A DNA stretch of 45,049 bases from positions 1-45,049 of the forward strand of contig JAKSIZ010000017.1 of assembly GCA_024398515.1 (NCBI GenBank), read 5' to 3'. Made by a program: the position numbers and the translations under genes. Every line of letters begins with the position of its first letter. The stretch's first letter is position 1. The notes below the pieces were generated by a model, which was not told where the DNA came from, did not search any database, and worked only from the letters and a program-made list of their open reading frames with translations. This stretch comes from Bacteroidaceae bacterium (GTDB lineage Bacteria > Bacteroidota > Bacteroidia > Bacteroidales > Bacteroidaceae). This document shows, piece by piece, positions 11-28,556 of this stretch.

Positions 11-140
11 TTTTATTATGTGTGGCTCTTCGGGACGAAGAGCGATGTGATGGTTGCGGCTGGGCGTTATGAACTTGTTCATATAAGCACAGGCGGAACC
101 AACACATCAAGGCTGCCTAAGGCAGACACACATAATGAAA
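11..140. repeat. 130-base cloverleaf palindrome, copy 1
   Basis: This stretch folds on paper into a four-stem structure. The outer stem is 11-24 with 127-140 (14 pairs, one G-U). A side hairpin is 25-32/36-43 (GCTCTTCG, loop GGA). A central arm pairs 44-49 with 103-108 and 52-55 with 97-100, capped by TATGAAC-TT-GTTCATA (68-83). A second side hairpin is 113-117/121-125 (CTGCC, loop TAA). Length and topology match the element at 28427-28556, although only the apical GAACTTGTTC is shared in sequence. The central and 3' parts recur at 37351-37465. It could be a non-autonomous mobile element or a structured RNA. No gene is visible in it. Confidence 0.7.
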
Positions 141-227
141 CGTATTTTTTTTCTTATATATAACACTTGGTTTTGCGAGCGTACTAAAAGCTTTTGCTCT
201 TACAGAGCGTGGCATGTTGCGTCGATA

Positions 228-275
228 TACCCAGGGCGTTGCCCTGGGCTGATAGGTGTAAGCCTTTCAGGCTAT
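228..275. repeat. REP-like double hairpin
   Basis: Two adjacent hairpins are visible. CCCAGGGC-GTT-GCCCTGGG (230-248) is a perfect 8-base-pair stem. AGCCT-TTC-AGGCT (261-273) has a 5-base-pair stem. From memory, this CCCAGGGCGTTGCCCTGGG motif followed by a TTTCAGG hairpin is scattered through Bacteroidota genomes as an extragenic palindrome. Such repeats are often linked to Y1 (RAYT/IS200-like) transposases, but no such transposase is in this window. Confidence 0.6.
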
Positions 276-280
276 AAAAT

Positions 281-598
281 GAAATAAAACACGAATAAAG
301 GCTGCCGCTTCGTTATCATTTGTAAATAATTCGTAAAAGCTCTCAAATATGTGTGAAGCACATATAGTGCGATGGGGTGCATGGCTGAATGAAATCGGCT
401 TGCCGCTTTTACAAAGCCAGGATGGCGACTAAAAGAAAACTTGTTTGCAGGCAGACATGCAGACCATCACACGTTAGTATCTGAAAAGATACTTTGAGGG
501 CTTGGTATTCGTGTATATATACATTGTGAACGGCGGATAAAACGGTCGGAATTGTGGGGGTGAGCGATAGGCTTTGTAGGGGTGTGTGGTGGGGGTGG
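281..598. other. Gene-free stretch with small hairpins
   Basis: No open frame here looks like a gene. Two small perfect hairpins are visible: ATATGTG-TGAAG-CACATAT (347-365) and AGTATC-TGAAAA-GATACT (476-493). The antisense frames that cross this stretch have low-complexity translations and run through the palindromes, so I treat them as chance. Together with the elements on both sides, the first 670 bases look like a cluster of repeats. Confidence 0.5.
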
Positions 599-684
599 AA
601 AAAAGTTGTACAACTTTCGCGCGAAAGTTGTACAACATTCAAGTGAAAGTTGTACAACTTTTTTTCGAGTTAAGCGTTCGTCTT
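599..684. repeat. Palindrome array A (3 units, 22-base period)
   Basis: GTTGTACAAC occurs at 605-614, 627-636 and 649-658, exactly 22 bases apart, each inside a 16-base palindrome (AAAGTTGTACAACTTT, last part imperfect in unit 2). Spacers are 6 bases and begin with C. An A-run precedes and a T-run follows, then GAGTTAAGCGTTCGTC (667-682). The same core, period and flank recur at 28196-28262. The ends resemble weak bidirectional terminators, and the spacing of about two helical turns would also suit a protein-binding array. Confidence 0.75.
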
Positions 685-770
685 GCGGAACGATGAACGT
701 CACTGCATGAAAAAATAAGTGCAAACAGTAAAAAATCATAATTTGTATGCCGAGAATTATAAATTTTTAT

Positions 771-778
771 TACCTTTG
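771..778 (+). promoter_or_regulatory. Promoter -7 box upstream of the Nif3-like gene
   Basis: TACCTTTG matches the Bacteroidota -7 element TAnnTTTG. A TTTG lies at 742-745, but the 25-base spacing is longer than the usual 19-21, so the -33 box is uncertain. The box lies downstream of an in-frame ATG at 747, which argues that translation begins at the GTG at 819. Confidence 0.6.
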
Positions 779-818
779 CACACGAAAAGAAGGAAACTTA
801 CAAAAAAATACGCAAAGC

Positions 819-1604
819 GTGAAGATTAAGGTCATTTTGGAAGCCCTTGAACATTTCGCGCCTCTGCCCTTGCAGGAAAGCTGGGACAATGCTGGCTTGC
901 AAGTAGGATTGACAGAGACGGATGCATCAGGGGCATTATTGTGTTTGGATGTCAACGAGGATATTGTTGACGAGGCGATAGAAAAGGGGTGCAACCTGAT
1001 TGTGTCGCATCATCCGCTGTTGTTTCGCGGACTTAAGCAGGTGTCGGATGCCAACTACGTGCAGCGCATAGTGATGAAGGCGGTGAAGAACGACATTGCA
1101 ATCATCTCCATGCATACCAACATGGACAATGCGAAGAACGGCGTGAACTATAAGATTGCCGAGAAACTTGGGCTCACGGACGTGAGGTTCCTCGACACGA
1201 AGCAGGGCGTCACACCCGAGTGCGGCAGTGGGGTGATAGGCGAATTTGTGTCGGGCATGGATGCCGAGGCGTTCATCATGAAGGTGAAGGAGACTTTCGG
1301 ATGCGGTTGTGTGATGACAAACGAGCCGTTGCAGCGAGGCATAAAGCGAGTTGCTATATGTGGTGGTGCCGGTGCATTCCTGTTGGATGAGGCAGTGAAA
1401 ACCAATGCCGATGCGTTCATCACGGGTGAGATGCACTATCATGAATACTTCGACCATGAGCAGGAAATACAGATTGCGGTAATAGGTCACTATGAGAGTG
1501 AGCATTTCACAACAGAGATTTTCCGCGACATCATAGCAAGTGTATGCCCATGCTTGCGCACGGAAATAGCAACGACAAACACCAATCCGATAAGGTATTA
1601 CTAA
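819..1604 (+). CDS. Nif3-like dinuclear metal centre protein
   Basis: A 261-residue member of the NIF3/YbgI/YqfO family. These are hexameric proteins with a two-metal site whose physiological role is unsettled (GTP cyclohydrolase type 1-like annotations are unproven). Family signatures are DNAGLQVG near the N terminus, SHHPLLF, an HTNMD-type motif, the C-terminal TGEMHYHE and HYESE metal-ligand motifs. The length fits the short form without the PII-like insert. I chose the GTG at 819 over the ATG at 747 because the TACCTTTG promoter box lies between them and homology begins at KVILEALE. The zinc-ribbon gene follows after 83 bases. Confidence 0.88.
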   Translation: MKIKVILEALEHFAPLPLQESWDNAGLQVGLTETDASGALLCLDVNEDIVDEAIEKGCNLIVSHHPLLFRGLKQVSDANYVQRIVMKAVKNDIAIISMHTNMDNAKNGVNYKIAEKLGLTDVRFLDTKQGVTPECGSGVIGEFVSGMDAEAFIMKVKETFGCGCVMTNEPLQRGIKRVAICGGAGAFLLDEAVKTNADAFITGEMHYHEYFDHEQEIQIAVIGHYESEHFTTEIFRDIIASVCPCLRTEIATTNTNPIRYY

Positions 1605-1687
1605 TACCCGCACGGAGAAAATAGGATAAAACAGTAGAATTATAAATAAATCATAAGTAGTAAAAACGTAAAATGTAGATCACTTTT

Positions 1688-2530
1688 ATGGCAAAGAAGA
1701 CAGTTAATTCAGCAGAAATGACAGTCGAAGACCGACTGAAAACATTGTATCAATTGCAGACAACACTCACTGCAATCGATGAAAAGCGTGCACTTAGAGG
1801 CGAACTTCCACTCGAAGTACAGGACCTCGAAGACGAACTCGTGGGCCTCAACACTCGCGTTGAGAAGATAATGGCAGAACTTGCAGAGCTTGATGCAGCA
1901 ATGACTGAGAAGCGTAACAGCGTAGCAGATGCCCAGGCTAAGATAGAACAATACAAGAGACAACTCGACGACGTGCGTAATAATCGCGAATACGACACGC
2001 TGAGCAAGGAAATAGAATATCAAGGTCTGGAGATTGAATTGTGCAACAAGAAGATGCGCGAAGGTGCAGCCCGCATTGAACAAAAGAAGGAAGAACTGCT
2101 AAAGACACAAGAAGCACTCACCGGCAGACGCACGGACCTCGAAATAAAACGCACCGAACTCGACGAGATTATGGAAGAGACACGTGCCGAAGAAGAGGTG
2201 TTGAAGGCAAAGGTTACAGAACTGGAGACAATGATTGAACCTCGACTCCTGCTCTCGTTCAAGCGAATCCGCAAGAATGTACGCAATGGTCTCGGCGTCG
2301 TTCCTGTTCAGCGTGACGCCTGTGGAGGTTGTTTCGCACAGATTCCACCACAGCGACAGCTCGACATAAAGATGCATAAGAAGGTAATCGTATGCGAATA
2401 CTGCGGAAGAATTCTCGTTGATCCAGAGCTTGCAGGCATAAAACCAGCCAAGGAAGAAAAGCCAAAGAAGACAAAACGAGCAGCAAAGAAGGCTGTTGTT
2501 GACTCAGACGAAAATCCAATTGAAGACTAA
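1688..2530 (+). CDS. Coiled-coil protein with C4 zinc ribbon
   Basis: 280 residues. The first 190 are heptad-rich and highly charged, predicting a long alpha-helical hairpin or coiled coil. The C-terminal part has two CxxC pairs (C212/C215 and C236/C239) forming a zinc ribbon of the zf-RING_7 (CT398-like) family, followed by a Lys-rich tail. The cellular role of the family is not well defined; nucleic-acid or membrane-associated roles have been proposed for relatives. Its end overlaps the next gene by about 35 bases in another frame, so translation of the two is probably coupled. Confidence 0.85.
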   Translation: MAKKTVNSAEMTVEDRLKTLYQLQTTLTAIDEKRALRGELPLEVQDLEDELVGLNTRVEKIMAELAELDAAMTEKRNSVADAQAKIEQYKRQLDDVRNNREYDTLSKEIEYQGLEIELCNKKMREGAARIEQKKEELLKTQEALTGRRTDLEIKRTELDEIMEETRAEEEVLKAKVTELETMIEPRLLLSFKRIRKNVRNGLGVVPVQRDACGGCFAQIPPQRQLDIKMHKKVIVCEYCGRILVDPELAGIKPAKEEKPKKTKRAAKKAVVDSDENPIED

Positions 2531-2927
2531 AATCTTCGATGTCCTGCGTAGGAAATACGTGGCACTGACACCCGAGGAGGAAGTGCGACAAGGCTTTGTC
2601 CACTTCCTCATCGAAGACCGTCACTACCCAAAAGAGTTGCTTGCCAACGAGGTAGAACTCAATAGCGGCAACAAGAAACTGCGATGTGACACGGTCGTGT
2701 ACGACACTGCACTGAAACCAGTGATGATTGTGGAGTACAAAGCACCACACATTGAACTCACACAAGCCATATTCAACCAGATTCTTGACTACAACAGCCT
2801 GCTCGGAGTGACTTATCTCGTGATGAGCAATGGGCGGACAACGGTCTGCTGCAAGGTCAACGACGGCAACTATGAGTTCCTCAAAGAGATACCAGAATAC
2901 TCAACCATCAATACAAAAGAGCAATGA
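2496..2927 (+). CDS. Stand-alone HsdR N-terminal-like (PD-(D/E)XK) protein
   Basis: About 143 residues matching the HSDR_N_2 domain, the nuclease-fold N-terminal part of type I restriction enzymes. It is a complete small gene here with no helicase domain and no HsdM or HsdS nearby. A plausible PD-(D/E)XK core is the Asp in KLRCDTVVYD followed by the EYK of MIVEYKAP. There is no ATG; TTG codons at 2496, 2499 or 2520 are the candidate starts, so the N terminus is uncertain. The stop overlaps the holA start (ATGA). From memory, Bacteroidales often keep this gene next to holA, which suggests a DNA-metabolism role rather than restriction. Confidence 0.75.
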   Translation: MLTQTKIQLKTKIFDVLRRKYVALTPEEEVRQGFVHFLIEDRHYPKELLANEVELNSGNKKLRCDTVVYDTALKPVMIVEYKAPHIELTQAIFNQILDYNSLLGVTYLVMSNGRTTVCCKVNDGNYEFLKEIPEYSTINTKEQ

Positions 2928-3934
2928 CACAGACATACATTCAGTTGATGAAAGACTTGCAGGCACGCAAGTTCGCACCCATATACTATCTTATGGGCGA
3001 AGAATCATATTATATAGATAAGGTGTCGGACTTCATTGCGGGCAATGTATTGGCTGAAGAAGAGCGTGACTTTAACCAGACTGTGGTCTTCGGTTCGGAC
3101 GTTTCGATGCAGCAGGTGGTTGAATACGCCAAGCGTTACCCAATGATGGCAGAACGCCAAGTGGTCATAGTCAAGGAATCACAGGGCATAAAGAGCATGG
3201 ATATGCTTGAACAATACATACAAAAGCCCATGACTTCGACGGTTCTCGTGTTCTGTCATAAGAACGGAAGCCTTGACAAACGCAAGAAAGTAGCGACATT
3301 GTTGACAAAATCAGATGCCGCAGTGGTGTTTGAGAGCAAGAAGTTGAAGGACACAGAACTGCCGGCGTTCATCATGTCGTACCTCAGCGAACAGGACATA
3401 AAGATAGATAATAAGTCGGTTCATATCATAGCCGAGTCGATTGGCTCGGACCTGAACCGTATGACAAGCGAGTTGGACAAACTCAAGATAGGTCTTCCTG
3501 ATGACCGAACAATAACGCCCGAGATTGTAGAACAGAAGATAGGCGTGAGCAAAGACTTCAATGCCTTTGAACTTCGCAACGCAATCGTGACGAAAAACGT
3601 GTTCAAGGCAAACCAGATAATCGACTATTTCGACAAAAATCCAAAGGCAGGAAGCATATACAACATGATTCCGTTGCTGTTTCAATACTTCGCCAACCTG
3701 ATGCAGGCGCATTATGCTCCGAAGAAAGACGACCGTAGTTTAGGCGAATGGTTAGGCATCTCGCCGTGGATGGCAAGGGAATATGTTAGTGGAATGAAGA
3801 TGTTTTCGGCAATGAAAACGCTTCAGATTATTGCAAAATTCCGTGAAGTCGATGCCAAGAGCAAGGGCCTTGACAATCCAAATACGTCGGCATCAGAACT
3901 AATGAAGGAACTTGTTTTCTTTATTCTTCATTAG
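2924..3934 (+). CDS. holA: DNA polymerase III delta subunit
   Basis: 336 residues, the usual size for HolA, the clamp-loader subunit that opens the beta sliding clamp. The N-terminal YYLMGEESYYIDKV motif is the degenerate nucleotide-fold start typical of delta. It is followed by the conserved helical segment around SDLNRMTSELDKL and by a C-terminal helical domain. It overlaps the upstream gene by 4 bases (ATGA), indicating co-translation. The stop is 9 bases from the convergent nuclease gene, with no obvious terminator hairpin between. Confidence 0.92.
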   Translation: MTQTYIQLMKDLQARKFAPIYYLMGEESYYIDKVSDFIAGNVLAEEERDFNQTVVFGSDVSMQQVVEYAKRYPMMAERQVVIVKESQGIKSMDMLEQYIQKPMTSTVLVFCHKNGSLDKRKKVATLLTKSDAAVVFESKKLKDTELPAFIMSYLSEQDIKIDNKSVHIIAESIGSDLNRMTSELDKLKIGLPDDRTITPEIVEQKIGVSKDFNAFELRNAIVTKNVFKANQIIDYFDKNPKAGSIYNMIPLLFQYFANLMQAHYAPKKDDRSLGEWLGISPWMAREYVSGMKMFSAMKTLQIIAKFREVDAKSKGLDNPNTSASELMKELVFFILH

Positions 3935-3943
3935 TTTCGGCAT

Positions 3944-4921
3944 TTATTTTAGCCCCCAGACACTCGGCACATAGTTCGACTCAACCTGCGACTCAATATC
4001 ATCTGGCAGGTTGCAGAAGAAGTCTATGCCCGTCTTTGCCTCTAACTCGTCGATTGACATGGCAAACTTCGAGAGGTTCGACCCTTGGTCAGTGCCTTTG
4101 TGTTCAATCCAAAAAGCCATTGCCTTATACCCTCCATTGCCATTCTTATGGTTCTTTACAAGGATTGCCATAAAGAAATACTTTGGCACAAGCAGGCTTC
4201 TGGCATATCCTGCCAAGCCGTTGTCGATGGTTCCACCCTTGCATACATACATTGTGTCAGTGCTTCCTGACGAAGGCGACCACTGCCTAACCTTGTTTTC
4301 CATATCTTCCCAAGTGCCGACATTAAACTCATAAAGCTGCGGCTGCATGTTTGAAAGATAGAAAGTTTGTTCGTTTGCGGTCATAGAACTAAGCCTGTCT
4401 GCCGATGGGCAAATATGTCCACGGTTGTAACCAGAACCACGATAGTCGTCGAGTTCAGTGCGGTATTGGTTCGGCAGAGATGGGTCAGGTTGGTAAGGAT
4501 CAGCGTAGGAGTGACCGGTTTGTTCGTAACAAAGATTAGCCCACTTGTTGTTGAAGATTTGATTTACCCAGTTGTTTCTGTTCCATCTTCTCGTGTTTGT
4601 CGTTGCGGTCATTTGGTATGCTGTCCACCTTTGAGCACGTTTCTCAGTGTCCCATTCAATACATATATTCACGCCTATGTCGTTGCTCTTATAGACGAGA
4701 AACCAGTTGTTGCCGCCTTTCAACGCTGGCATCTCAATGCGTTGCGCTATTTGCAATGCCTCTTGAGTGCTTGAGAGGTTTGTTGTCTCGTTAAGAAAAT
4801 TGTTTATATTCTTGTTTCCCTTGGTCATTTCTTTGCCCGTAGTATCGTCGTCGTCCGAACAAGATACCATAATCAATGCGGCAAAGAGTGCCAGAAAGAG
4901 TGCTTTCGAAAAGATTTTCAT
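3944..4921 (-). CDS. Secreted DNA/RNA non-specific endonuclease (lipoprotein)
   Basis: 325 residues. A signal peptide ends in a lipobox with Cys21 (MVSC), followed by acidic residues, predicting an envelope-anchored lipoprotein. The fold is that of the Serratia-type beta-beta-alpha-metal nucleases. The DRGH motif is present as N166-R-G-H169, giving the general-base His169, and the metal-binding Asn lies in LSNMQPQ (N191). It probably degrades extracellular DNA and RNA for nutrition or as a defence. It starts 2 bases after the PdxA-like gene ends, so the two are very likely cotranscribed from upstream of rlmN. Confidence 0.88.
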   Translation of the reverse strand: MKIFSKALFLALFAALIMVSCSDDDDTTGKEMTKGNKNINNFLNETTNLSSTQEALQIAQRIEMPALKGGNNWFLVYKSNDIGVNICIEWDTEKRAQRWTAYQMTATTNTRRWNRNNWVNQIFNNKWANLCYEQTGHSYADPYQPDPSLPNQYRTELDDYRGSGYNRGHICPSADRLSSMTANEQTFYLSNMQPQLYEFNVGTWEDMENKVRQWSPSSGSTDTMYVCKGGTIDNGLAGYARSLLVPKYFFMAILVKNHKNGNGGYKAMAFWIEHKGTDQGSNLSKFAMSIDELEAKTGIDFFCNLPDDIESQVESNYVPSVWGLK

Positions 4922-4923
4922 AG

Positions 4924-5703
4924 TTATTGCTCGTCTTTTTTCTTCATGAATTCCAACGGTGCAAAGCGTGGTCGGCGGTCTTCGCCTTCTTTCTGCTCGT
5001 GGTAAAGTTTAGGAAGAGGATTGCTGTATGCCTCATCGTATGACTTGCGTTTATTGAACGATTTTGCGATTGTGAACACAATCTCAGCCAGATTTGTGGC
5101 GTCGGCTTCAGGTGCAGAGACGATAATCTTTGGCGTGTCCATCGCCCATGCAATAGGCTTTATGTCGTTGCCGTTGACAAAATTCATTGCTTCGTTGCCG
5201 TTTATGACCAAAAGAGCATCAAAACAATCATATTGCTTTTCCTCGAAGAATGTTGCTGGCTGATATGGTCCAAAGCATTGAATCTTGCTCTGGAACAGAT
5301 TTTCTAATGCAGGTTTTACGATGCTTTCCTCGGCATTCTCAGGTTCTGCATCGTTGGAAAGCACGGCAATTCGCGGATTTGTAATAAGGAAATCACGCCT
5401 TAAAGTCTTGTGCATTGTCGTTGCCAAGGCTATGATATCGTCAGCAGTAGGCTTTGTGTTGGCAACCTTGAGCGTAGAAATCTTCACGCCATTCCCTATA
5501 TATAATAAGGAATAAGCGTTGTCGGCATTGCTCTCTTTCGCAAGGTTCAGCACAGCATCATAGTCTTCCTCTTCGCTTTCAGCGAGCGACACAACATGAC
5601 AAGCGTCGTAGAGTGCCGCATCGTTGAAGTATTGATTCAGTTCTTCTTCGTTCCAAATCTCGTTGCCATCCATTGAAATGGCGAGTCGTATCTTGTTGTT
5701 CAT
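4924..5703 (-). CDS. PdxA-derived protein lacking catalytic motifs
   Basis: 259 residues. The C-terminal half aligns by eye with 4-hydroxythreonine-4-phosphate dehydrogenase (PdxA): LRRDFLITNPRIAVLS, then an insert, then FGPYQPATFF, YDCFDALLVI, and an ending resembling the NPL-KLY tail of Bacteroidales PdxA. The metal- and substrate-binding motifs are gone: the MYHDQGL segment is replaced by INGNEAMNF, and the N-terminal GDxxGIG motif reads SMDGNEIWN. It is also about 100 residues shorter than active PdxA. The frame is open and the protein looks soluble. I infer a pseudoenzyme that has lost pyridoxal-phosphate synthesis activity; its present role is unknown. Confidence 0.65.
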   Translation of the reverse strand: MNNKIRLAISMDGNEIWNEEELNQYFNDAALYDACHVVSLAESEEEDYDAVLNLAKESNADNAYSLLYIGNGVKISTLKVANTKPTADDIIALATTMHKTLRRDFLITNPRIAVLSNDAEPENAEESIVKPALENLFQSKIQCFGPYQPATFFEEKQYDCFDALLVINGNEAMNFVNGNDIKPIAWAMDTPKIIVSAPEADATNLAEIVFTIAKSFNKRKSYDEAYSNPLPKLYHEQKEGEDRRPRFAPLEFMKKKDEQ

Positions 5704-5754
5704 AATTACAGATTTTGTTTATTTCGTGTTCTCGATAGTTCGATATTCCGGTTT

Positions 5755-6837: not shown

Positions 6838-6880
6838 GCTTGATTTTATTTACAATTTGCGTTTCATTGCATTTATTCCT

Positions 6881-7114
6881 TTATTCACCAATCATTTCCA
6901 AAAAGTCTTTTTTCGACACTTTTAGCTCTTGCAGAATGTTCTTTACAATAAATATCGGAACAGGGTCAACGTGTGTCTGAATGACAATTGGCCTTGAACA
7001 TCCTTCTTTAACCCATATTTCATGCCCACCATTTATGTGGTCTCTTTTCAAACCATAGTTAAAAAGGAACTTCCTGAAATCCTTCAAAGGGATATTCGAC
7101 ATTCGCTTTGTCAT
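6881..7114 (-). CDS. hicA: HicA-like toxin (mRNA interferase)
   Basis: 77 residues. A double-stranded-RNA-binding-like fold of the HicA/YcfA family: the N-terminal KDFRKFLFNYGL helix, then the NGGHEIW strand with the catalytic His at about residue 30, then a C-terminal HVDPVPIFIVKNILQEL segment. The family cleaves mRNA when freed from HicB. The start overlaps the hicB stop by 4 bases (ATGA on the minus strand). A second start, MSNIPLK, four residues in is possible. Antitoxin-before-toxin order is the reverse of the classical hicAB order. Confidence 0.82.
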   Translation of the reverse strand: MTKRMSNIPLKDFRKFLFNYGLKRDHINGGHEIWVKEGCSRPIVIQTHVDPVPIFIVKNILQELKVSKKDFLEMIGE

Positions 7115-7437: not shown

Positions 7438-7508
7438 AACACAACTTATATATTGAATATTTATAACTATTTCTTACTTCTTGCCGATGCCCTGTGGCTT
7501 TATTTTGT

Positions 7509-9124: not shown

Positions 9125-9128
9125 ACTG

Positions 9129-9136: not shown

Positions 9137-9264
9137 GTAATTATTTACTATTTATGATTTACTATTTACGATTTATTTGCAATTTTTTTTCATCTATCGC
9201 AATCATGCGTCTTTCTTCGCGCCGTGGCTTGAGCGTAAGGCTTCACTCGGACGACCCTTATACT

Positions 9265-16741: not shown

Positions 16742-16794
16742 TTATTTGCGATGGTTGAGCGTAATGGTTTCTTGGGTTGAACGCTTGAGTGGGA

Positions 16795-16957
16795 AAAACA
16801 TTGCTGCAATGTTCGGCTCAACATTGGAGCAATGTTCGACTCAACATTGCAGCAATGTTTGGCGGAGTTAAGCGTTCGACTTTGAGAGTTTGAGCGTTCG
16901 GCTTCGAGATTTTAAGCGTTCGACTTCGAGAGTTCGAGTTCTCGAGTTTTCGAAATA
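16795..16957. repeat. Palindrome array E plus GTTCGA tandem repeats
   Basis: ATTGCTGCAAT (16800-16810), ATTGGAGCAAT (16823-16833) and ATTGCAGCAAT (16846-16856) are spaced exactly 23 bases apart in palindromes AACATTG-CNG-CAATGTT, with spacers CGGCTC and CGACTC. Immediately after, GAGTTAAGCGTTCGAC (16866-16881) begins about three tandem copies with a period near 22 bases (TTGAGCGTTCGGC, TTAAGCGTTCGAC), fading into a TCGA-rich tract. The first of these equals the right flank of arrays A and B. The gap upstream of the GH3 gene holds nothing else that I recognise. Confidence 0.7.
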
Positions 16958-19946: not shown

Positions 19947-19954
19947 TTTTTTTA

Positions 19955-20043
19955 CGGTTTTGGGTTTTTGGGTTATGGGTTTTTCGAGATTTCGAGATTT
20001 CGGTCGGGCTGTCCGTACAACCTACAACCAACAACCAATAACC
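19955..20043. repeat. GGTT-rich imperfect hairpin with TCGA core
   Basis: The left arm GGTTTTGGGTTTTTGGG faces a right arm ending CAACCAACAACCAATAACC; in between lie TTTCGAGATTTCGAGATTTCGG and a short GC-rich block. A similar structure with the same AACCCATAACC/GGTTATGGGTT words lies at 33270-33337. It could act as a terminator for the upstream operon. Confidence 0.5.
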
Positions 20044-20048
20044 TTATT

Positions 20049-21941
20049 TTAATACTTCACCGTCATTATCGTGATGTCGTCGTTTTGTTCTGCACCGTCG
20101 GTAAACTTGCGTACATCGGTGAGAATGTCTTCTGTAATCTGCATCACGCTATTCTTGTTGATGTTGTTCACGAGTGAGAGCAGACGCTCTTCACCATATT
20201 GATCCTTGTTCTCCTTCTCGGCTTCGGTTACTCCATCGGTGTAGAGCACGAGGTGAGAACCGTGATGCAGTTGAACTTGTTCGTCTTGATAGTCGAATCC
20301 ATTGAACACACCACCGACCATGTTTGCCTTTGCACGGAGATAGTTTGCTGTGCCGTCAGGGTTGACGATGATTATTGAGTTGTGTCCTGCATTGCAGTAT
20401 TCAAGGAGTCCTGTGTCGAGGTGGAGCTTTCCTACGAAGAATGTGACGAACATATCCGTGTCGTTGCCTTCGCTGACAGAAGTGTTCATGCCGCAGACAA
20501 CGTCTTTAACATTGAGTCCTTGGTTGGCAAGATAGCGGAAGGAACTTCGCGTGATAGCCATATAGAGTGCAGCAGGGATACCCTTGCCAGAGACATCGCC
20601 AATGGCAAAATAGAAGCATCCGTCTTTCTCGATGAAGTCGTAGAGGTCGCCTCCAACCTCCTTTGCAGGGAAGAGGAATGCGTGAACACGCTCTGAGAAG
20701 TTCTTTGGAACCATACCCAACTGGATGTCGCGTGCAATGGAAAGTTCGCTTTCTATTCTCTGTTTTGCCGCTGTTACCGTTTGTAGTTCCGAGATATAGT
20801 TAGTCAATGAAGTCTGCATATACTCAAATGAATTGTGCAGCTGCAACATTTCATCCTTTGAATGTATCTCAGGCAATTTAGCGTTGAAGTTACCCTGCGC
20901 AATCTCTCTTGCAGAGTTGGAGAACAAGTACAATGGTTCTGTAAGGCGGCTGATTATTCTTTGTGTTATGAAGACGAGCAATGCCAAACCAATAATCAGC
21001 ACGAGAGCAAGCACAAGACCCATAGTGTTAAGTTTTTCCAGAACACTTTGATACTTACAAACGATAGCCATAGACCAACCGTTCATGACAGGTCCGTATG
21101 CAGCAAAACACTTTATGCCATCATCGTCAACGAATTTACCAATGCCTGTTTCGCCCCCAACCATGCTCTTGCCGAGTTCCATGAGTTCTGGATTCTCTTT
21201 CTTCAACGACATGATGGCTGAGAAGATAGACTCGTTGAGAATGGATGACGTGTCGGGATTTGATATGAACGATGCGTTGGCTGAAATGAGCATAACGTAT
21301 GACTCCTTGTATGGCTTTATTGCCTCGGCGTATTTTGTCAGTGCTTTTAGGTTGACATCGGCTGTGAGCACGGCGATGACTTCATTGTCCTTGTTAAGAA
21401 TTGGAACGGAATAAGTAATCATCATCTGCCTGCCGCCACCATCGTCATAGTATGGCTCGCTCCACCAAGGCTTCTTTAATAAAGAAGGAATAAGGAACCA
21501 ATCGAGAATGGTATATTCATAGTTCTCGTTTCCCATTTGTACGGAGTGGACTTTGCCAGTGGATTCCTCTATATATGTATAAGGTGCATAATACTTGCCT
21601 TTCGACTCGTAGAAATTTGGAATGAACGACACCGTGCTTCCGATAACGTATGGATTCTCTTTTACAAGGTGCTCAGGAATAGTTGCAATGAACTCGGGAT
21701 CATCAAGGTTCTCTTTCGCAATCCAAACACTATTCAGCGTGGCAGCTTCGACATTTGAAAGTACAGATTCAATGTCGCCAATAGTTGCATCGAGAAGGTT
21801 TGTCACCTTTTCTTCGGCTTCATCAATAAGTATTGAGCGTGAGAAAGCACCAACAACAATGATGGTAATGACAAACAATGTTGCCGCCAGCGTGAGGATA
21901 TATATGCTTAAGCGTTTGGAAAACGAGTGGGAGATCTTCAT
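20049..21941 (-). CDS. Membrane sensor with Cache, HAMP and PP2C (SpoIIE/RsbU-like) phosphatase
   Basis: 630 residues. A transmembrane helix (about 12-34), a periplasmic double-Cache-like sensor (about 40-295), a second helix (about 300-320), a HAMP domain (SRLTEPLYLFSNSAREIAQG), a short coiled coil (QTVTAAKQRIESELSIARDI) and a PP2C/SpoIIE phosphatase. Metal-binding motifs GGDLYDF (near 430), GDVSGKG (near 450), LYTDGVTEA and QNDDITIM are intact. RsbU-type enzymes dephosphorylate an anti-anti-sigma partner, but no STAS or RsbW-like gene is present here. The ATG overlaps the end of the binding-protein gene by 4 bases, implying that ligand binding and phosphatase output belong together. Confidence 0.88.
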   Translation of the reverse strand: MKISHSFSKRLSIYILTLAATLFVITIIVVGAFSRSILIDEAEEKVTNLLDATIGDIESVLSNVEAATLNSVWIAKENLDDPEFIATIPEHLVKENPYVIGSTVSFIPNFYESKGKYYAPYTYIEESTGKVHSVQMGNENYEYTILDWFLIPSLLKKPWWSEPYYDDGGGRQMMITYSVPILNKDNEVIAVLTADVNLKALTKYAEAIKPYKESYVMLISANASFISNPDTSSILNESIFSAIMSLKKENPELMELGKSMVGGETGIGKFVDDDGIKCFAAYGPVMNGWSMAIVCKYQSVLEKLNTMGLVLALVLIIGLALLVFITQRIISRLTEPLYLFSNSAREIAQGNFNAKLPEIHSKDEMLQLHNSFEYMQTSLTNYISELQTVTAAKQRIESELSIARDIQLGMVPKNFSERVHAFLFPAKEVGGDLYDFIEKDGCFYFAIGDVSGKGIPAALYMAITRSSFRYLANQGLNVKDVVCGMNTSVSEGNDTDMFVTFFVGKLHLDTGLLEYCNAGHNSIIIVNPDGTANYLRAKANMVGGVFNGFDYQDEQVQLHHGSHLVLYTDGVTEAEKENKDQYGEERLLSLVNNINKNSVMQITEDILTDVRKFTDGAEQNDDITIMTVKY

Positions 21942-22882: not shown

Positions 22883-24286
22883 CTATAGTTTGAAAGTGTC
22901 TTTGATGAAATCTATCATGTATGGGTCAATGACGTTTCGGTTGTCGAACATAATCATATACAGACAAGCGTATGGCGCAAGCATCTTGTTTGCTTCCTCA
23001 ACGGTTATTCCATCGAAATACTTCTCAACAAATATGCTCCAGAACTCAAGCATTTGCGCTTTTGTAATATGGTATAGGCGCGTGATGAGTTCTTCTTCAA
23101 GTGTCGTCATCAGGTAGATGCAGCCAACATCGATGAGTGGAGTGCCGTATGCAAAGTCGCCAAGGTCAATCCAATAGTTCTGTGTGCCGTCTGTTATTAT
23201 ATTGCCAATATGCAAGTCACCGTGGATACAAGTCGTCTCCTCTGGTATATTGTCAAGGAAAGCAAAGATTTTCTGCTTTTGTTCATCATTATATGACTTG
23301 CTCTGCTCAACGATGCCACGGAATTTCTTTTTCGCATCAGGGAACTTTGTGATAGAGCATTGTGTGCTGTGAAGTGCCTTGCATTCCTTTACAAACTCTT
23401 CAGAATAATATGCGAGTTTGTCTGGTTCATTGCTTATGGCACGTGCAAACGACTTTTTCGGTGAGATGCGTTGGAACTCTACTCCTATGCGTTTGCCGTC
23501 TGTCACCATGCGAAGGGCTGCAGGGACATGAAGTCCTAACTGCTGAATATGCCAACTTGTTTGCAATTCGTTGAGCGGAACTTCCTTTGGGATGAAGTCT
23601 GAATACAGCTTCATCATTCGCTTGCCATCCTTGTGGTTGTAGCTTATGGCCGTAAATCCATCGCCACTCTGCTCGTACTCGTTCATGTCAATGAGTTCAG
23701 GCTTAGGTGCACCAAACACTAAATCGATGAGGCTTGCAAACTCACGGTATGCGAAAGTACCGGCAAGAGTGCTCAGTGCTGTGGCAAGTCCGCGATAATG
23801 CCATTCGTGGTCTGGCTTTCCGTTAGGTGCATGGAAGCGGTCCCAAAGCTTGTCGCCAATCTCGCGATAATCGCGATAGATGGCACGCATGTTCGACAGT
23901 TTGTCGCCCATTGCAACAATCTTTGCATCTTTGCTTGCATTTGTAAGTCTGTCTATCGCAGCTTGTTTTCTCATGTGCCAGCTGTCAACATCGCTGACTC
24001 CAGCAATAAATGTGTCGCTTTCGGCATCAACGAGTTTGGCTATTCTTTCGCCAAATTCTTTGCGTATTTCTTCTACTGTAGTGTCGGTGTCCTCTACTGT
24101 GTCGTGAAGTGCAGCAGCGGCAAGGAGTTCCTGGTCGGCTGTTATTGTTGCCACAATCTCTACTGCCTCCATCGGATGAACTATGTATGGGAAGCCTTTT
24201 CCCCTACGTTCTGTGTTGGCATGTGCCTTTACTGCAAAAATTATCGCTCTATCGAGCAGTGAGCTATCAATGTACTTGTTCGCCAT
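22883..24286 (-). CDS. HD hydrolase (RSH type) fused to APH-like kinase
   Basis: 467 residues in two parts. Residues 1-190 form an HD domain of the SpoT/MESH1 (HD_4) type: H37 in IVHPMEA, H61-D-T-V-E-D66, and the MGDKLSNMR segment, all expected in (p)ppGpp 3'-pyrophosphohydrolases. Residues about 200-467 form a phosphotransferase of the APH/choline-kinase fold, with catalytic HGDLHIGN (355-362) and metal-binding WIDLGDFAYG. The C-terminal part resembles the TIGR02172-type kinase family, from memory. Such a fusion is unusual. The synthetase gene lies 7 bases upstream, so alarmone synthesis and hydrolysis are split over neighbouring genes. Confidence 0.82.
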   Translation of the reverse strand: MANKYIDSSLLDRAIIFAVKAHANTERRGKGFPYIVHPMEAVEIVATITADQELLAAAALHDTVEDTDTTVEEIRKEFGERIAKLVDAESDTFIAGVSDVDSWHMRKQAAIDRLTNASKDAKIVAMGDKLSNMRAIYRDYREIGDKLWDRFHAPNGKPDHEWHYRGLATALSTLAGTFAYREFASLIDLVFGAPKPELIDMNEYEQSGDGFTAISYNHKDGKRMMKLYSDFIPKEVPLNELQTSWHIQQLGLHVPAALRMVTDGKRIGVEFQRISPKKSFARAISNEPDKLAYYSEEFVKECKALHSTQCSITKFPDAKKKFRGIVEQSKSYNDEQKQKIFAFLDNIPEETTCIHGDLHIGNIITDGTQNYWIDLGDFAYGTPLIDVGCIYLMTTLEEELITRLYHITKAQMLEFWSIFVEKYFDGITVEEANKMLAPYACLYMIMFDNRNVIDPYMIDFIKDTFKL

Positions 24287-24293
24287 AATAAAT

Positions 24294-25403
24294 TTATTTT
24301 TGAGTATTCATAAAAGGTAAGTCTTTCGCTTGTTGTATGAGTCGCTGTGCGCGACTGAGGTTGTAAGGTGATTCACCGTTCAGAGTGTCGAAGAACTTTG
24401 CCAAGTCTTGCTCGCCGTATCCGTTTTTCAGTTGGAAAACTATCAATAGGTTCTGTAAGGCAATGGTTGAAACAACGATGTCAATATCCGTTCCACTTAT
24501 CTGGAACAATGCTAATTGGTATGCAGCTTCCCAGTAATCTTGCTTCAGTCGTTCGATGTCGCCAAGTGTCTTGAACCCAAGTCGCATCAATACTTTAAGG
24601 AAAGGCAAGGCTGATGCTTGGTGTATCTCTGCTTGGTTTATGGCTGCAATCTTATTTGTCAATCGTTCAAACGGATTGAGTTCAAGGTATCTTCTGTATG
24701 AATCACCGTCGAGTTCCACTTCGTCGAACTTTCCGTCGCTTACAAGTCCTTGCACCTTGTAGCGGTATTCGCTCAATGAACGTCGGATTCTGCTGAACTC
24801 GTCGTCGGCAAGTTCAAGCATACCTGCCAGACGGTTGAGCGTTCTGAGGTATTCGGTTGGTACTTCGATGTTGGTCTTGTATCCAATATCGTGGTACATA
24901 TTTGCCCATACATGCTGCAATGCAGTACGCATCTGAATCTCAAACCTCAGTTCATTGAGCATTAGCATTTGCTCATTGTGATAGATGGATTCTGGTATTC
25001 GGCAAATATAGTGCAACGACATGTAGCCGAAGCTGTTAAGCTGATGCATCTTTCGCTTATCTACAGAATTCTGCCAGTCTATCGAGAATTTACTCTCAAT
25101 GAGTGCGGAAATTTTGTCAACATCCTCCGTATAGAACGTGATGACACGCGCTCCGACTATGTCGGTAAGATCCGAAAGGCTGTTGTACTTGTAGCCTTTG
25201 AGCAACAATTTTCCCGCAAGGCTTTCTTCAGATTTTATCCTACTTTCTATTGCCGTGACTGCAATATGGTTCGAGTCCAAGCAATTTCTCAACGTTGTGT
25301 CTATTATTTCTCGCATTTTTGTAAACACAACCTCATTGTCACGATACTCTTCGAGAATCATCGTGCCAATGATATCCAAACCGTAATCTTTCAATTCTTT
25401 CAC
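24294..25403 (-). CDS. RelA/SpoT-domain alarmone synthetase
   Basis: 369 residues. The nucleotidyltransferase domain (about 30-180) has every key motif of (p)ppGpp synthetases: R55-x-K57 with the following EESL..K, LTDIVGARV (D81), FGYMSLH (125-131), and EIQMRTALQHVWANMYHDIGYK (E155, H164). There is no HD or TGS domain in this protein. The last 170 residues are helical and unfamiliar. The listed GTG start (25403) lies 4 bases after a perfect promoter -7 box, so the message is leaderless or translation begins at the ATG at 25361 (residue 15). First gene of a four-gene operon. Confidence 0.87.
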   Translation of the reverse strand: MKELKDYGLDIIGTMILEEYRDNEVVFTKMREIIDTTLRNCLDSNHIAVTAIESRIKSEESLAGKLLLKGYKYNSLSDLTDIVGARVITFYTEDVDKISALIESKFSIDWQNSVDKRKMHQLNSFGYMSLHYICRIPESIYHNEQMLMLNELRFEIQMRTALQHVWANMYHDIGYKTNIEVPTEYLRTLNRLAGMLELADDEFSRIRRSLSEYRYKVQGLVSDGKFDEVELDGDSYRRYLELNPFERLTNKIAAINQAEIHQASALPFLKVLMRLGFKTLGDIERLKQDYWEAAYQLALFQISGTDIDIVVSTIALQNLLIVFQLKNGYGEQDLAKFFDTLNGESPYNLSRAQRLIQQAKDLPFMNTQK

Positions 25404-25407
25404 GTTA

Positions 25408-25438
25408 CAAAGATAAGTTATTTCCAGTAAATCTCAAA
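25408..25438 (-). promoter_or_regulatory. Promoter of the alarmone signalling operon
   Basis: On the minus strand TTTG (25438-25435), 19 bases, TATCTTTG (25415-25408). It is a perfect Bacteroidota promoter, diverging from the mdh promoter about 70 bases away. Transcription should begin within a few bases of the GTG at 25403. Confidence 0.8.
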
Positions 25439-25485
25439 ATATTTCAGGCATTTTAATAAAAAAACAAAAATAATTGGATTTTATG

Positions 25486-25516
25486 ATTGCCTATAAGCGA
25501 AGTTTTATTATCTTTG
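25486..25516 (+). promoter_or_regulatory. Promoter of mdh
   Basis: ATTG (25486-25489), 19 bases, TATCTTTG (25509-25516). It lies 44 bases upstream of the mdh ATG at 25561. The in-frame ATG at 25474 is upstream of the promoter and cannot be used on this transcript. Confidence 0.75.
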
Positions 25517-25560
25517 CAGTGAGTTTCAAAAACATTTATTACTACAAACAAATTATAACT

Positions 25561-26553
25561 ATGGCTTTTTTAACAAATGAGAAATTGACAATCGTGGGTG
25601 CTGCCGGCATGATTGGTTCAAACATGGTTCAGACAGCTCTTATGATGGGTTTAACAAACGAAATTTGCCTTTACGACGTATTCTCTCCTGCAGGTGTTGC
25701 TGAAGAAATGCGCCAGTGTGCATTTGGTGATGTAAAAATCACGGCTACTACTAACGTAAAGGTTGCCTTTGAGGGCGCAAAGTATATCATCTCTTCTGGT
25801 GGTGCTCCACGTAAGGAAGGCATGACACGCGAGGATCTTTTGGCTGGCAACTGTAAGATTGCCGAGGATCTTGGCAAGAGCATCAAGAAGTATTGTCCTG
25901 ATGTTAAGCAGGTAGTCATCATATTCAACCCTGCTGACCTTACTGGTCTTGTAACTCTGCTCTACTCTGGTTTGAAGCCAGGTCAGGTTACAACTCTTGC
26001 AGCTCTTGACACTACTCGTCTCCAGAGCGCACTCATCAAGAAGTTCAAGGTACAGCAGAGCGACATCACAGGTTGCGCTACATACGGTGGACACGGCGAA
26101 CAGATGGCTGTATTTGGCTCAAACGTAAAGGTTGCAGGACGTCCTTTGACTGACATTATCTGCACTGACGAGTTCCCAGAGGACGAATGGGATCAGATGA
26201 AACGCGACGTTACACAGGGTGGTGCACGCATTATCTACCTCCGCGGACGCAGTTCATTCCAGAGCCCAGCTTACCTTGCAGTGGGCATGATCCGTGCTGC
26301 AATGGGTGGCGATAAGTTCAATTACCCAATTGGTACATACGTTTGCAACGAGAAGTACAACCATATCATGATGGCAATGGACACTGAAATGACTACTGAA
26401 GGTTGCAAATACAAGATGCCTGTAGGCACTGAAGAGGAAATGGCTAAGCTTGATGCAAGCTACGAACACCTCTGCAAGATGCGCGACGAGCTCATTACTC
26501 TGAAGATTGTTCCTGCTATTGATCAGTGGAGTTCAATCAATCCTAACCTCTAA
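25561..26553 (+). CDS. mdh: Malate dehydrogenase
   Basis: 330 residues. NAD-dependent oxidation of malate to oxaloacetate, used in the reductive branch that leads to succinate in Bacteroidales. The Rossmann start LTIVGAAGMIGSN is followed by the DVFSPAGVAEEM segment, the FNPADLTG motif, the DTTRLQSALIKK segment with catalytic Arg and Asp, and the ATYGGHGEQM catalytic-His region. I chose the ATG at 25561 because it follows the promoter and begins at the conserved MAFLTNEKLTIVG. The gamma-carbonic-anhydrase-like gene follows after 8 bases. Confidence 0.92.
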   Translation: MAFLTNEKLTIVGAAGMIGSNMVQTALMMGLTNEICLYDVFSPAGVAEEMRQCAFGDVKITATTNVKVAFEGAKYIISSGGAPRKEGMTREDLLAGNCKIAEDLGKSIKKYCPDVKQVVIIFNPADLTGLVTLLYSGLKPGQVTTLAALDTTRLQSALIKKFKVQQSDITGCATYGGHGEQMAVFGSNVKVAGRPLTDIICTDEFPEDEWDQMKRDVTQGGARIIYLRGRSSFQSPAYLAVGMIRAAMGGDKFNYPIGTYVCNEKYNHIMMAMDTEMTTEGCKYKMPVGTEEEMAKLDASYEHLCKMRDELITLKIVPAIDQWSSINPNL

Positions 26554-26561
26554 TCATCCTT

Positions 26562-27074
26562 ATGGCATTGATTAAATCTATTAAAGGCCTTACTCCGAAA
26601 TGGGGTAAGGCTTGTTATTTTAGCGAGAATGCTACGATAGTTGGCGACGTTCAGATGGGCGACGAGTGCTCAATCTGGTTCAATGCCGTCGTTCGTGGCG
26701 ACGTGAATTGGATTAAGATGGGCAACCGATGCAACGTTCAGGATGGTGCCTGCCTGCATACAACCTACAAGACTGGTCCGCTTGAAATCGACGACGACGT
26801 CACTATAGGCCACCTTGCCATGGTTCATGCTTGCAAGATTCATCGCGGTGCATTGATCGGAATGAACTCTACGCTGCTCGACCATTGCGAGATTGGCGAG
26901 GGTGCAATAGTCGCTGCGGGGGCTTTAGTGCTCGGTGGAACCAAGATTGGCGACCATGAGATATGGGGCGGAGTACCGGCTAAGTTCATCAAGAAGACTG
27001 CTCCAAACCAGGCAGAATCATTTGCCGAACACTACGTAATGTATAGTAAATGGTATCTCGACGAGGAGAAATAA
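26562..27074 (+). CDS. Gamma-carbonic-anhydrase-like (YrdA type) protein
   Basis: 170 residues with hexapeptide repeats forming a left-handed beta helix. The metal-binding histidines of the family are at HTTY, GHLAMVH (the His-x4-His pair) and match the YrdA/PaaY type. The acidic loop of the Cam-type enzyme is absent, so carbonic anhydrase activity is plausible but unproven. It is separated from mdh by 8 bases and probably shares its transcript. A strong terminator follows at 27093. Confidence 0.85.
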   Translation: MALIKSIKGLTPKWGKACYFSENATIVGDVQMGDECSIWFNAVVRGDVNWIKMGNRCNVQDGACLHTTYKTGPLEIDDDVTIGHLAMVHACKIHRGALIGMNSTLLDHCEIGEGAIVAAGALVLGGTKIGDHEIWGGVPAKFIKKTAPNQAESFAEHYVMYSKWYLDEEK

Positions 27075-27092
27075 CGTTTGGGTTGACACAAT

Positions 27093-27138
27093 AAAAAACG
27101 GCTGACTTCCGTATTGCTTGCGAAAGTCAGCCGTTTTT
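27093..27138. terminator. Bidirectional terminator
   Basis: AAAAAACGGCTGACTT (27093-27108) pairs with AAGTCAGCCGTTTTT (27124-27138) around a 15-base loop. The A-run and T-run on both sides make it work in both directions, ending the mdh transcript and the convergent OmpA-like gene. Confidence 0.85.
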
Positions 27139-27152
27139 CGTGTCCTTATTCT

Positions 27153-27989
27153 TTAGTCTTCTGACGGACCTTTTTCAATCAAATCCATAAACTGGTCGAG
27201 TTTCGGAGTGATGATTATCTGTGTGCGGCGGTTGCGCTGACGGCCAAGGTCGCTGTCATTGTCGGCTATTGGGTTGTATTCACCGCGTCCACCTGCTGTC
27301 AGACGCTTAGGATCAACGTTGAAGTTGTTCTGCAAATACTGCACAACACTCGATGCACGGAGGCAAGAAAGGTCCCAATTGTTGCGGATGTTCTCCTTCT
27401 TGATAGGCACAGAGTCAGTATTTCCTTCAACGAGTACGTCGTAATCATTGTAGTCGGTGATAATCTTTGCAATCTTGCCCAACGTTTCTTGTGCGCGACT
27501 GCTGATTTCATAACTACCTGTCTTGAACAGCATATTATCTGCCAACGAGATATATACCACGCCCTTCAGTACCTGTACGTCGATGTCCTTCAGCTCTTCC
27601 TTGCTGAGCGAACGCGTAAGGTTGTTGGTCAGGATAAGGTTGAGAGAGTCTGACTTGCTCTTAAGTTCCGTCAAGTGGCGGATGTACTGGTTCGACTCAT
27701 TAATCTGGTCAACGAGCTTTGCGATATTTACATTCGACTGCGAACCGGTTGAGAGGCTCTGCTCAAGTGAACGCTGCAAGTCGGCATTCGACTTACGCAT
27801 AACCTTCAGTTGGTCTTCCAATCCCGTGATACGTGCCTTTGCCGAAGCAAGTTCTTCCTTCGACGTTTGCCAATTGCCCTGCAGAGTTTTGTATTCCTCT
27901 TGGCATTCCAATAGTTTCTTGTTGCTTGAACATGAACTAACCCCAAATGCTAATGCAACTGTAACAGTTGCCATGATAATCTTTTTCAT
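27153..27989 (-). CDS. OmpA/MotB-domain lipoprotein
   Basis: 278 residues. A lipoprotein signal with Cys20 (GVSSC) is followed by a coiled coil (about 28-125) and a C-terminal OmpA-like peptidoglycan-binding domain. Its motif elements are GNTDSVPI, NNWDLSCLRASSVVQYL, and GRGEYNPIADND...RQRNRRTQII. It probably anchors the outer membrane to peptidoglycan. A perfect promoter lies at 28042-28072 on the minus strand. Confidence 0.88.
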   Translation of the reverse strand: MKKIIMATVTVALAFGVSSCSSNKKLLECQEEYKTLQGNWQTSKEELASAKARITGLEDQLKVMRKSNADLQRSLEQSLSTGSQSNVNIAKLVDQINESNQYIRHLTELKSKSDSLNLILTNNLTRSLSKEELKDIDVQVLKGVVYISLADNMLFKTGSYEISSRAQETLGKIAKIITDYNDYDVLVEGNTDSVPIKKENIRNNWDLSCLRASSVVQYLQNNFNVDPKRLTAGGRGEYNPIADNDSDLGRQRNRRTQIIITPKLDQFMDLIEKGPSED

Positions 27990-28041
27990 ATTTCTTCCCT
28001 TTATTAAAAATGGTTTATACTCCTTTGACGAATTACGAGGG

Positions 28042-28072
28042 CAAAAGTAAAGTTTTTTTTCCTTTTACCAAA
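28042..28072 (-). promoter_or_regulatory. Promoter of the OmpA-like gene
   Basis: Minus strand: TTTG (28072-28069), 19 bases, TACTTTTG (28049-28042). This is a perfect match to the Bacteroidota consensus, giving a leader of about 50 bases. Confidence 0.75.
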
Positions 28073-28195
28073 AAATTTTAGATTTTTTATGAGATTATTC
28101 ACGTTATTTTACGTTAGTCGTGGCTTATGTTTTGCGCCGTTGAACGGATGTTTTTTGCGGCATGAACGCTACCCCTCTACAGTATGTTCTGTTGG

Positions 28196-28262
28196 GGGTG
28201 AAAAAAGTTGTACAACTTTCACTCGAAAGTTGTACAACTTTTTTTCGAGTTAAGCGTTCGTC
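28196..28262. repeat. Palindrome array B (2 units, 22-base period)
   Basis: GTTGTACAAC at 28207-28216 and 28229-28238, spacing 22, inside AAAGTTGTACAACTTT palindromes, spacer CACTCG. The left flank GGGGGTGAAAAAAG and right flank TTTTTTTCGAGTTAAGCG match array A (599-684), so these are two copies of one element with 2 and 3 units. Confidence 0.75.
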
Positions 28263-28426
28263 CTAAAAAACGATAACGTTCACCTCGCAAAACCAGAGCA
28301 AAAGATTGGCCCGCGGATTAAATATACCATGGCAGTAAGTAGGAGAGTTCGGGCACAAACAAAAATAAACCTTTCCGCGTCTTGTACCTTGAACTTTGAA
28401 CTTAAACGGTTTATTTCGGTTTATCA

Positions 28427-28556
28427 CCTTGAAGAGTATGATAGCCTTCTGTAAGAAGGTGATGCTATCGGTACAAGGATTTATCGAAGAACTTGTTCTT
28501 CAGGAAATGCTTGTACCGATAGCATCAGGTGCCGAAAGCACCCATACTCTTCAAGG
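28427..28556. repeat. 130-base cloverleaf palindrome, copy 2
   Basis: Outer stem 28427-28440 with 28543-28556 (14 perfect pairs, CCTTGAAGAGTATG). Side hairpin 28445-28449/28455-28459 (CCTTC, loop TGTAA). Central stem 28460-28477 with 28510-28527 (18 perfect pairs, TGATGCTATCGGTACAAG). Apical hairpin GAAGAAC-TT-GTTCTTC (28486-28501). Second side hairpin 28528-28532/28538-28542 (GGTGC, loop CGAAA). GGTTTATC occurs on both sides (28418-28425 and 28557-28564), like an 8-base target duplication with one extra base on the left. The length is 130, the same as copy 1. It is not a gene. Confidence 0.78.

Follow-up and report, generated by a model that had tools for sequence, protein, structure and literature searches.

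Paired DNA cloverleafs as probable ends of small mobile elements, with and without a GxxExxY gene, in a Bacteroidaceae bacterium

Miniature inverted-repeat transposable elements (MITEs) are short and gene-less, occur in many intergenic copies and match a gene-bearing relative elsewhere in the genome at both ends. Repetitive extragenic palindromes (REPs) form inverted doublets, the REPINs or bacterial interspersed mosaic elements (BIMEs), which reach tens of genome-private copies and are possibly recognised as single strands by REP-associated tyrosine transposases (RAYTs); REP units are given as 20 to 40 bases in the accessible part of one account (PMC3733652). The PINSR repeat of Prevotella intermedia and Prevotella nigrescens is 188 bases long, intergenic, private to its species group and present in two strains at copy numbers of 177 and 184, and the accessible part of its description reports it to be without terminal inverted repeats and mentions neither a fold nor a gene-bearing relative (PMC4755523). 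The repeats analysed here lie in a 45,049-nucleotide stretch of a Bacteroidaceae bacterium (GenBank assembly GCA_024398515.1, contig JAKSIZ010000017.1, positions 1 to 45,049, forward strand; the window) and elsewhere in the same genome, and resemble PINSR, by description only, in being intergenic and private to a group. They form short elements that look like MITEs or REPINs, but their ends and their partner gene are unlike either. Unlike MITEs, they end in two different cloverleaf-forming palindromes rather than in matching terminal inverted repeats, their gene-bearing relative encodes no known transposase, and no target duplication was seen. Unlike REPINs, their cloverleafs measure about 130 bases, the two partner ends are dissimilar in sequence, and the window's genome has only a decayed Y1 match.

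Intervening sequences of 23S rRNA genes have folded ends. Those with an S23 gene are, in the available part of the account of the Coxiella case, small single-gene elements like the gene-bearing elements described below, which carry instead a member of the GxxExxY family (NCBIfam TIGR04256, Pfam PF13366), a family most of whose examined members were not cloverleaf-flanked by our detector. In their accessible parts, the papers found to use the term GxxExxY do not treat mobility, and the open-licence literature, as far as its text was available, held nothing describing cloverleaf-ended GxxExxY elements. We consider it fairly probable that the cloverleafs are the ends of small mobile elements, that the window copies are gene-less, MITE-like derivatives with a GxxExxY-bearing relative, and that the GxxExxY protein acts on such copies in trans, as we propose.

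An earlier note on the window, made from the sequence alone, had described positions 11 to 140 and 28427 to 28556 as two palindromes of equal length and common architecture. Both are indeed 130 bases long and, when folded as single-stranded DNA against a background of 200 shuffles per stretch, formed the claimed stems, hairpins and apex (GAACTTGTTC) at -43.1 kcal/mol (z -12.4) and -48.1 kcal/mol (z -14.4), respectively, values that no shuffle of either stretch equalled. The common architecture consists of a 14-pair outer stem, a first side hairpin (8 pairs in the first stretch and 6 in the second), a long central arm and a 5-pair side hairpin, and the opposite strands form much the same folds (z -8.9 and -14.3). 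A three-arm descriptor comprising the outer stem, two side hairpins and long central arm was run over the window and gave three matches, the best two being these stretches; the third and weaker match, at 44070 to 44238, was taken for chance, and two weaker matches also came from a single shuffle of the window. The apex GAACTTGTTC was observed four times in the window, compared with 0.17 expected. One of these sites, at 37378 to 37387, belongs to a truncated third copy which the note had overlooked, and the surroundings of another, at 20273, were not cloverleaf-like by eye.

The count of two was a considerable underestimate. In the window's genome (G000, 88% complete), the apex occurred 81 times (39 and 42 by strand), compared with 15 for the reversed pattern. 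These sites had 80 distinct surroundings, 53 of which were complete by their end patterns and were assigned to types C (21), A (13), B, E and F (5 each) and D (4); the incomplete ones were in some cases chance sites in genes and in others copies cut by contig ends. BLAST placed type A, the type of the first window copy, at 28 places (40 rows, 12 of them reverse matches of the same palindromes) and its usual partner, type C, at 33 places (46 rows, 13 reverse). With type H, which has a different apex, there are at least seven sequence types, with unit sizes of about 115 to 162 bases, and three-arm folds were found for types A, B, C, D and F. Two type F copies (L047 and L060) are 156 bases long instead of the usual 128, owing to an insert, itself containing small hairpins, within the central arm's 3' half. 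The statement that the copies are otherwise unlike in sequence applies between types A and B and fails within types, where mean column identity was 91% (C) and 94% (A). The elements lie at many contig ends, and short-read assemblies are probably broken by them.

The note's claim of selection on pairing was borne out by type C. In 20 distinct copies, 16 pairs of the central arm were changed on both sides with 96.3% of the arm cells paired, and over the whole structure 97.8% of cells were paired, a level which none of 500 shuffles reached and which slid structures (24 to 52%) did not approach. Counts of two-sided changes can be inflated by kinship among copies, but the pattern is plain in the alignment regardless: the outer stem and side hairpins are nearly invariant, the apex is fixed, and the central arm is variable yet paired. 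The covarying arms are a natural record of this division in a folded DNA end: sequence is what is kept in the apex, the outer stem and the side hairpins, and shape in the central arm. Selection could instead act on a transcript, as the note's folded-RNA alternative had it, through a structured RNA or a transcription signal such as a terminator or 3' end stabiliser. The mismatch cells bear on this: G-T versus A-C counts were 18:6 in type C and 5:5 or 12:9, depending on the structure used, in type A, so the strand bias of tolerated mismatches is not clear. Strong folds and T-runs outside the stem would suit a transcript, but an Rfam scan of both strands of the window at the gathering score gave no match. 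In the same way, all four type D copies sit, by eye, just behind the stop of the upstream gene and opposite to its strand, whereas the 22 places read by eye (genes required on both sides, small overlapping frames ignored) were flanked by tandem genes in 16 cases, by divergent genes in 4 and by convergent genes in 2. Because the cloverleafs are also patchy among genus-mates and have ends in common with gene-bearing elements, we regard an RNA or transcription signal as very improbable.

The single cloverleaf, which the note had taken as the unit, proved to be half of an element with two ends. In a complete element these ends are cloverleafs of different types, each with its 3' side outward: type C is paired with A or H, type E with A, and type F with B. 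Elements with a C or E end and an A or H end also hold tiny hairpins between T-runs, designated s1 at the C/E side and s2 at the A/H side, and the order C/E-s1-core-s2-A/H was found in all 10 elements with both ends in view, counting one without an s2 match (L152) and one whose C end is cut off by the contig (L020). The core is about 15 to 110 bases long and is often palindromic itself. Other elements have one recognised end only. Short outer motifs (ACAAAAACA and TGTTTTTGT) were seen by eye to be inverted at the two ends, which are otherwise different cloverleafs. At one locus (L046, contig C39, about 480 to 1070), an A-C element lies within a larger inverted repeat (CCCTTTTCGTGTGT, ACACGAAAAGG) that is followed by an F-B-type outer motif, as if elements were nested.

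The only gene seen between paired cloverleafs was a GxxExxY gene, in the window's genome and in G120, G122 and G218 and, by the detector, also in G191 and G224. In the window's genome, the copy on contig C12 (L140) has a left cloverleaf at 3470 to 3596, the GxxExxY gene at 3682 to 4104 and a right cloverleaf at 4117 to 4278; type D lies on one side of the gene and another cloverleaf on the other, and copies on contigs C4, C19 and C29 match both ends of this element without the gene. On contig C73, which ends in the s1 (type C) spacer, that spacer precedes a GxxExxY gene, and s2-like hairpins and then an H end come after the gene. The gene-less copies on contigs C67, C23 and C14 have the arrangement C-s1-short core-s2-H, as in the spacer and H end of C73, and the copy on C47 has it in part. 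G120 offers a further case: its gene-bearing L247 has both ends in common with a short pair (L232/L124, a single place), the identities being 83% and 80%. The retention of both gene-bearing ends by gene-less copies, as in MITEs, is thus seen for C12, for L247 and, with one end off the contig, for C73, and the window's A and B copies are linked to such elements by grammar and likeness. Cloverleafs also lie on both sides of the GxxExxY gene at L246 in G218 and at L252 in G122, where the 147-residue gene was met without searching for it.

The ends were also compared by likeness scores, the best of six targets being taken per query. The window's type B end resembled ends of gene-bearing elements in G120 (score 84, z 16.7) and G122 (score 77, z 16.4), with 0 of 200 shuffles reaching either score. 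Other likenesses were found for type F (z 20.6, G120), type D (z 7.6, G218) and type A (z 6.3, one end in G122), and type C had no likeness to any of the six targets. By these comparisons, it is sequence that ties the second window copy to gene-bearing elements; for the first, the tie is chiefly the C-s1 and s2 grammar common to them. Since window positions 1 to 10 resemble the s2-side end of other copies, the contig appears to start inside the element of 11 to 140, and the partner end would lie off its left edge; the F partner of the type B copy at 28427 to 28556 seems to have been lost.

To put the linkage in proportion, 41 GxxExxY loci were scanned with a strict detector. These loci are mostly the best-scoring ones, not a random sample; four weak rows were omitted, many more matches exist than loci, one locus (L292) is probably in the wrong frame, and two (L248 and L307) have short upstream flanks. 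Cloverleafs were detected on both sides of 5 of the 41 genes and on one side of 4, compared with 0 and 1 of 19 S23 genes and 0 and 4 of 205 shuffled flanks. S23 (PF05635) was thereby rejected as a partner gene, the count of 19 having been made after 7 of 26 rows were omitted as weak or broken; the 182-residue neighbour at L269 is a nitroreductase. By eye, among the first 17 GxxExxY loci, at least L234 had cloverleafs on both sides, and L247, L248 and L238 had one on the side that the detector missed. Many of the 32 genes without a detected cloverleaf adjoin other repeats, and GxxExxY genes evidently have several kinds of surroundings, cloverleafs among them. That most GxxExxY genes examined had no detected cloverleaf would fit a passenger gene, e.g., a selfish or defence nuclease, in elements which another enzyme moves via their cloverleaf ends, as would the occurrence of cloverleafs in G008 without a full-length GxxExxY gene and the inferential nature of the protein's action on DNA ends. 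Such a passenger would have to account for GxxExxY being the sole gene seen between paired cloverleafs, in six genomes (two of them by detector), with its active-site residues kept, and we think it unlikely, though worth bearing in mind.

Several observations weigh against the interpretation of the cloverleafs as ends of mobile elements served by the GxxExxY protein. Cloverleafs were not detected at 32 of the 41 GxxExxY genes, and it was searches for GxxExxY that brought up most of the loci in which cloverleafs enclose a gene. A search of the window's genome (88% complete) gave no F-B element with a gene, in the C73 copy the contig stops short of the C cloverleaf, and the G008 genome, 90% complete, has cloverleafs but no full-length GxxExxY gene. 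The four type D copies showed no clear target duplication and had fuzzy ends, no empty site was found, s1/s2 blocks without a recognised end were present at L054 and L155, and types E and H formed two-arm folds only. No clear cloverleaf was found beside the GxxExxY relatives in eight plasmid records of other genera. At L290 in G191, the GxxExxY gene lies between nearly identical cloverleafs that point the same way, in contrast to the inverted pairs at other loci. Lastly, the likeness of the protein to junction resolvases, described next, is weak and comes in part from a model.

The linked gene encodes a GxxExxY protein of the PD-(D/E)XK superfamily, as judged by profile matches: six copies, gene-bearing or candidate, scored 87 to 125 bits against PF13366 (cut-off 22), and the G122 protein scored 95 bits against TIGR04256 (cut-off 35). 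Residues E34 (of the GxxExxY motif), Y37, D74, E84 and K86 were invariant in 17 of 17 proteins, and the PD-(D/E)XK-type residues of the putative active site (E34, D74, E84 and K86) are thus kept. T7 endonuclease I and RecU resolve junctions. In profile comparisons, the relatives were weak and nonsignificant, namely, T7 endonuclease I (E values of 0.044 and 0.048) and the uncharacterised 4ic1 (0.27), and the next Pfam families matched by several members were Cas4 (0.0028), phage endonuclease I (0.0092) and HSDR_N_2 (0.015). A low-confidence structure model (pLDDT 56.5), built with an alignment of three viral-contig relatives, ranked nuclease folds first, including RecU and a Holliday junction resolvase, and had no match below an E value of 0.001 in the PDB comparison. 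By analogy, the GxxExxY protein may resolve junctions. GxxExxY genes have been named by their motif only; for some of them, the elements described here supply a genomic setting and a substrate that can be tested.

The note's suggestion of a mobile-element role is supported by the many members and the gene-bearing relatives; its designation of the enzyme as a transposase or integrase is not, as GxxExxY is neither by any known family. From the ends common to gene-bearing and gene-less copies, the many intergenic places, the kept pairing and the kept active-site residues, we infer folding in the cell, cutting, movement and a role for the junction. A full element would have two different, outward cloverleafs enclosing tiny hairpins set between T-runs and a single GxxExxY gene, whose protein would also act in trans on gene-less copies. 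The protein may recognise the folded end as a cruciform or an exposed single strand, in five of the seven named types with a predicted four-way junction at its base, and may cut there, after which host repair would move or copy the element. If shape is what is recognised, the arm sequence would be free to drift with its pairing preserved. If the protein does move DNA via folded ends, it would be a new type of enzyme for bacterial mobile elements. The larger proposal, a self-contained class of mobile DNA in bacteria with one enzyme only, a PD-(D/E)XK protein of about 140 residues that resolves or nicks junction-like cloverleaf ends, is a tentative one to which we give somewhat less than an even chance; it would imply a route unlike those of DDE, HUH, tyrosine, serine and reverse-transcriptase enzymes and large gene-less families whose ends diverge freely while still folding.

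We also considered whether the cloverleafs are giant REPINs or BIMEs, i.e., REP-like palindromes spread by a Y1 HUH (RAYT) transposase. The inverted doublets, intergenic spread and genome-private sequences agree with this, but the units of 115 to 160 bases do not match the REP length of 20 to 40. The Y1 family PF01797 was found in four of the five cloverleaf genomes (four matches in G218, the best at 1e-26, two in G122, two weak ones in G120 and one remnant in G000), which counts in its favour and against our own interpretation; the G218 and G122 matches are open. In the window's genome (88% complete), however, the sole match scored 28 bits and had a stop inside, and G008 had none. PF01797 was also present in 6 of 12 other genomes, five of which gave no accepted cloverleaf in the 60 to 80 kb sampled. 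With no clear link in PF01797 searches of the window's genome and 16 others, RAYT/Y1 was rejected as the driver, and we hold this explanation to be quite improbable. REP-like repeats do adjoin many of the copies: a block (CTTTTGCTCTTACAGAGCG, CCCAGGGCGTTGCCCTGGGC, CCTTTCAGGCTAT), seen at about 190 to 280 of the window and 1380 to 1850 of L071, lies just outside many cloverleafs. A similar block flanks the genome's sole, decayed Y1 match, and the REP-like block may therefore be a RAYT-linked repeat.

A covariance search, which the note had named as a check, returned further members among 100 genomes of the genus. Because the types do not align in the side hairpins, a common model of the whole cloverleaf was abandoned and the model used (R1) was limited to the outer stem and central arm; at most 34 candidates were scored per genome, and E values are rough. 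Matches were obtained in five genomes, G000 (at least 34), G120 (6), G008 (3), G122 (1) and G118 (1), the last being rejected by eye as a simple-repeat palindrome. The members in G120, G008 and G122 have different sequences and apices (GAGCTTGCTC or GAGCTCGCTC, GAACTGGTTC and GAGTTTGCTC), and in some cases another cloverleaf is found close by. Six genus-mates, five without R1 matches and one (G146) outside the R1 search, were scanned with the descriptor over 400 kb (60 to 80 kb each), giving one match, which was taken for chance, compared with two in shuffles of 40 stretches. In the nearest relative found, G218, none of the 13 GAACTTGTTC sites was a cloverleaf by eye, and gene-bearing elements with other apices were present. 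The highest GAACTTGTTC counts in 59 other genomes were 39 (G027), 26 (G034), 24 (G032), 23 (G022) and 23 (G028), with reversed-pattern counts of 14, 11, 5, 5 and 2, respectively; G028 and G032 have 5 and 7 PF13366 matches.

Outside the genus, a type A 18-mer had three matches in named species (two Pseudomonas and one Chloroflexi metagenome-assembled genome), and one in viral contigs, a type C pattern had seven matches in viral contigs, and type A had no match in plasmids. GxxExxY relatives were found in the eight plasmid records of other genera and, by an alignment query, at three viral-contig loci; there were none in phage records and none in viral contigs with two single queries. In a Prevotella nigrescens plasmid record, the detector match beside the GxxExxY gene is made of direct repeats. 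At 3 of the 8 plasmid-record genes, L281 (Treponema saccharophilum), L283 (Bacteroides finegoldii) and L284 (Bernardetia), the flanks contain inverted matches, 11, 15 and 12 bases long, respectively, a count that stands without a chance baseline, and the GxxExxY genes of these and other plasmid records sit close between same-strand genes.

Table 1. Features of the window associated with the cloverleaf copies
Feature	Positions	Strand	Basis or remark
End of inner spacer (s2 side) preceding type A ends	1..10	+	TATTTTGTCA, like spacer end of other copies, by eye
Cloverleaf type A, probable end of a gene-less C/E-s1-core-s2-A/H element	11..140	+	Fold z -12.4; 28 places in genome
Central-arm apex GAACTTGTTC	71..80	+	
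Outer flank with T-run, loosely conserved beside types A, C and E	141..165	+	By eye
CACAAACAAAAATAAACC, probable inner-side remains of lost type F partner	28354..28371	+	Inferred from by-eye comparison with F-B pairs
Type B inner spacer AAACGGTTTATTTCGGTTTATCA	28404..28426	+	Similar motif within F-B pairs, by eye
Cloverleaf type B, elsewhere partnered by type F	28427..28556	+	Fold z -14.4; like gene-bearing ends in G120 and G122
Central-arm apex GAACTTGTTC	28489..28498	+	
Outer flank GGTTTATCTTGGTTTTCGTTTTT	28557..28579	+	Similar motifs inverted at two ends of F-B elements and G120 elements, by eye
Type A copy, 5'-truncated, without first side hairpin and outer 5' strand	37351..37465	+	85% identity to 45-148

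The coordinates of the features in the window are given in Table 1. Other short palindromes, of the AAAGTTGTACAACTTT, AAACTGCTACAGTTTT and AACATTGCTGCAATGTT types, recur in the window at 599 to 664, 28201 to 28244, 37560 to 37625 and 16776 to 16880, and palindromes akin to them are found near cloverleaf copies on other contigs. Dockerin-bearing proteins with GH43 and CBM_4_9 domains are the products of genes at 28696 to 30855, next to the type B copy, and at 35043 to 36896, next to the truncated type A copy.

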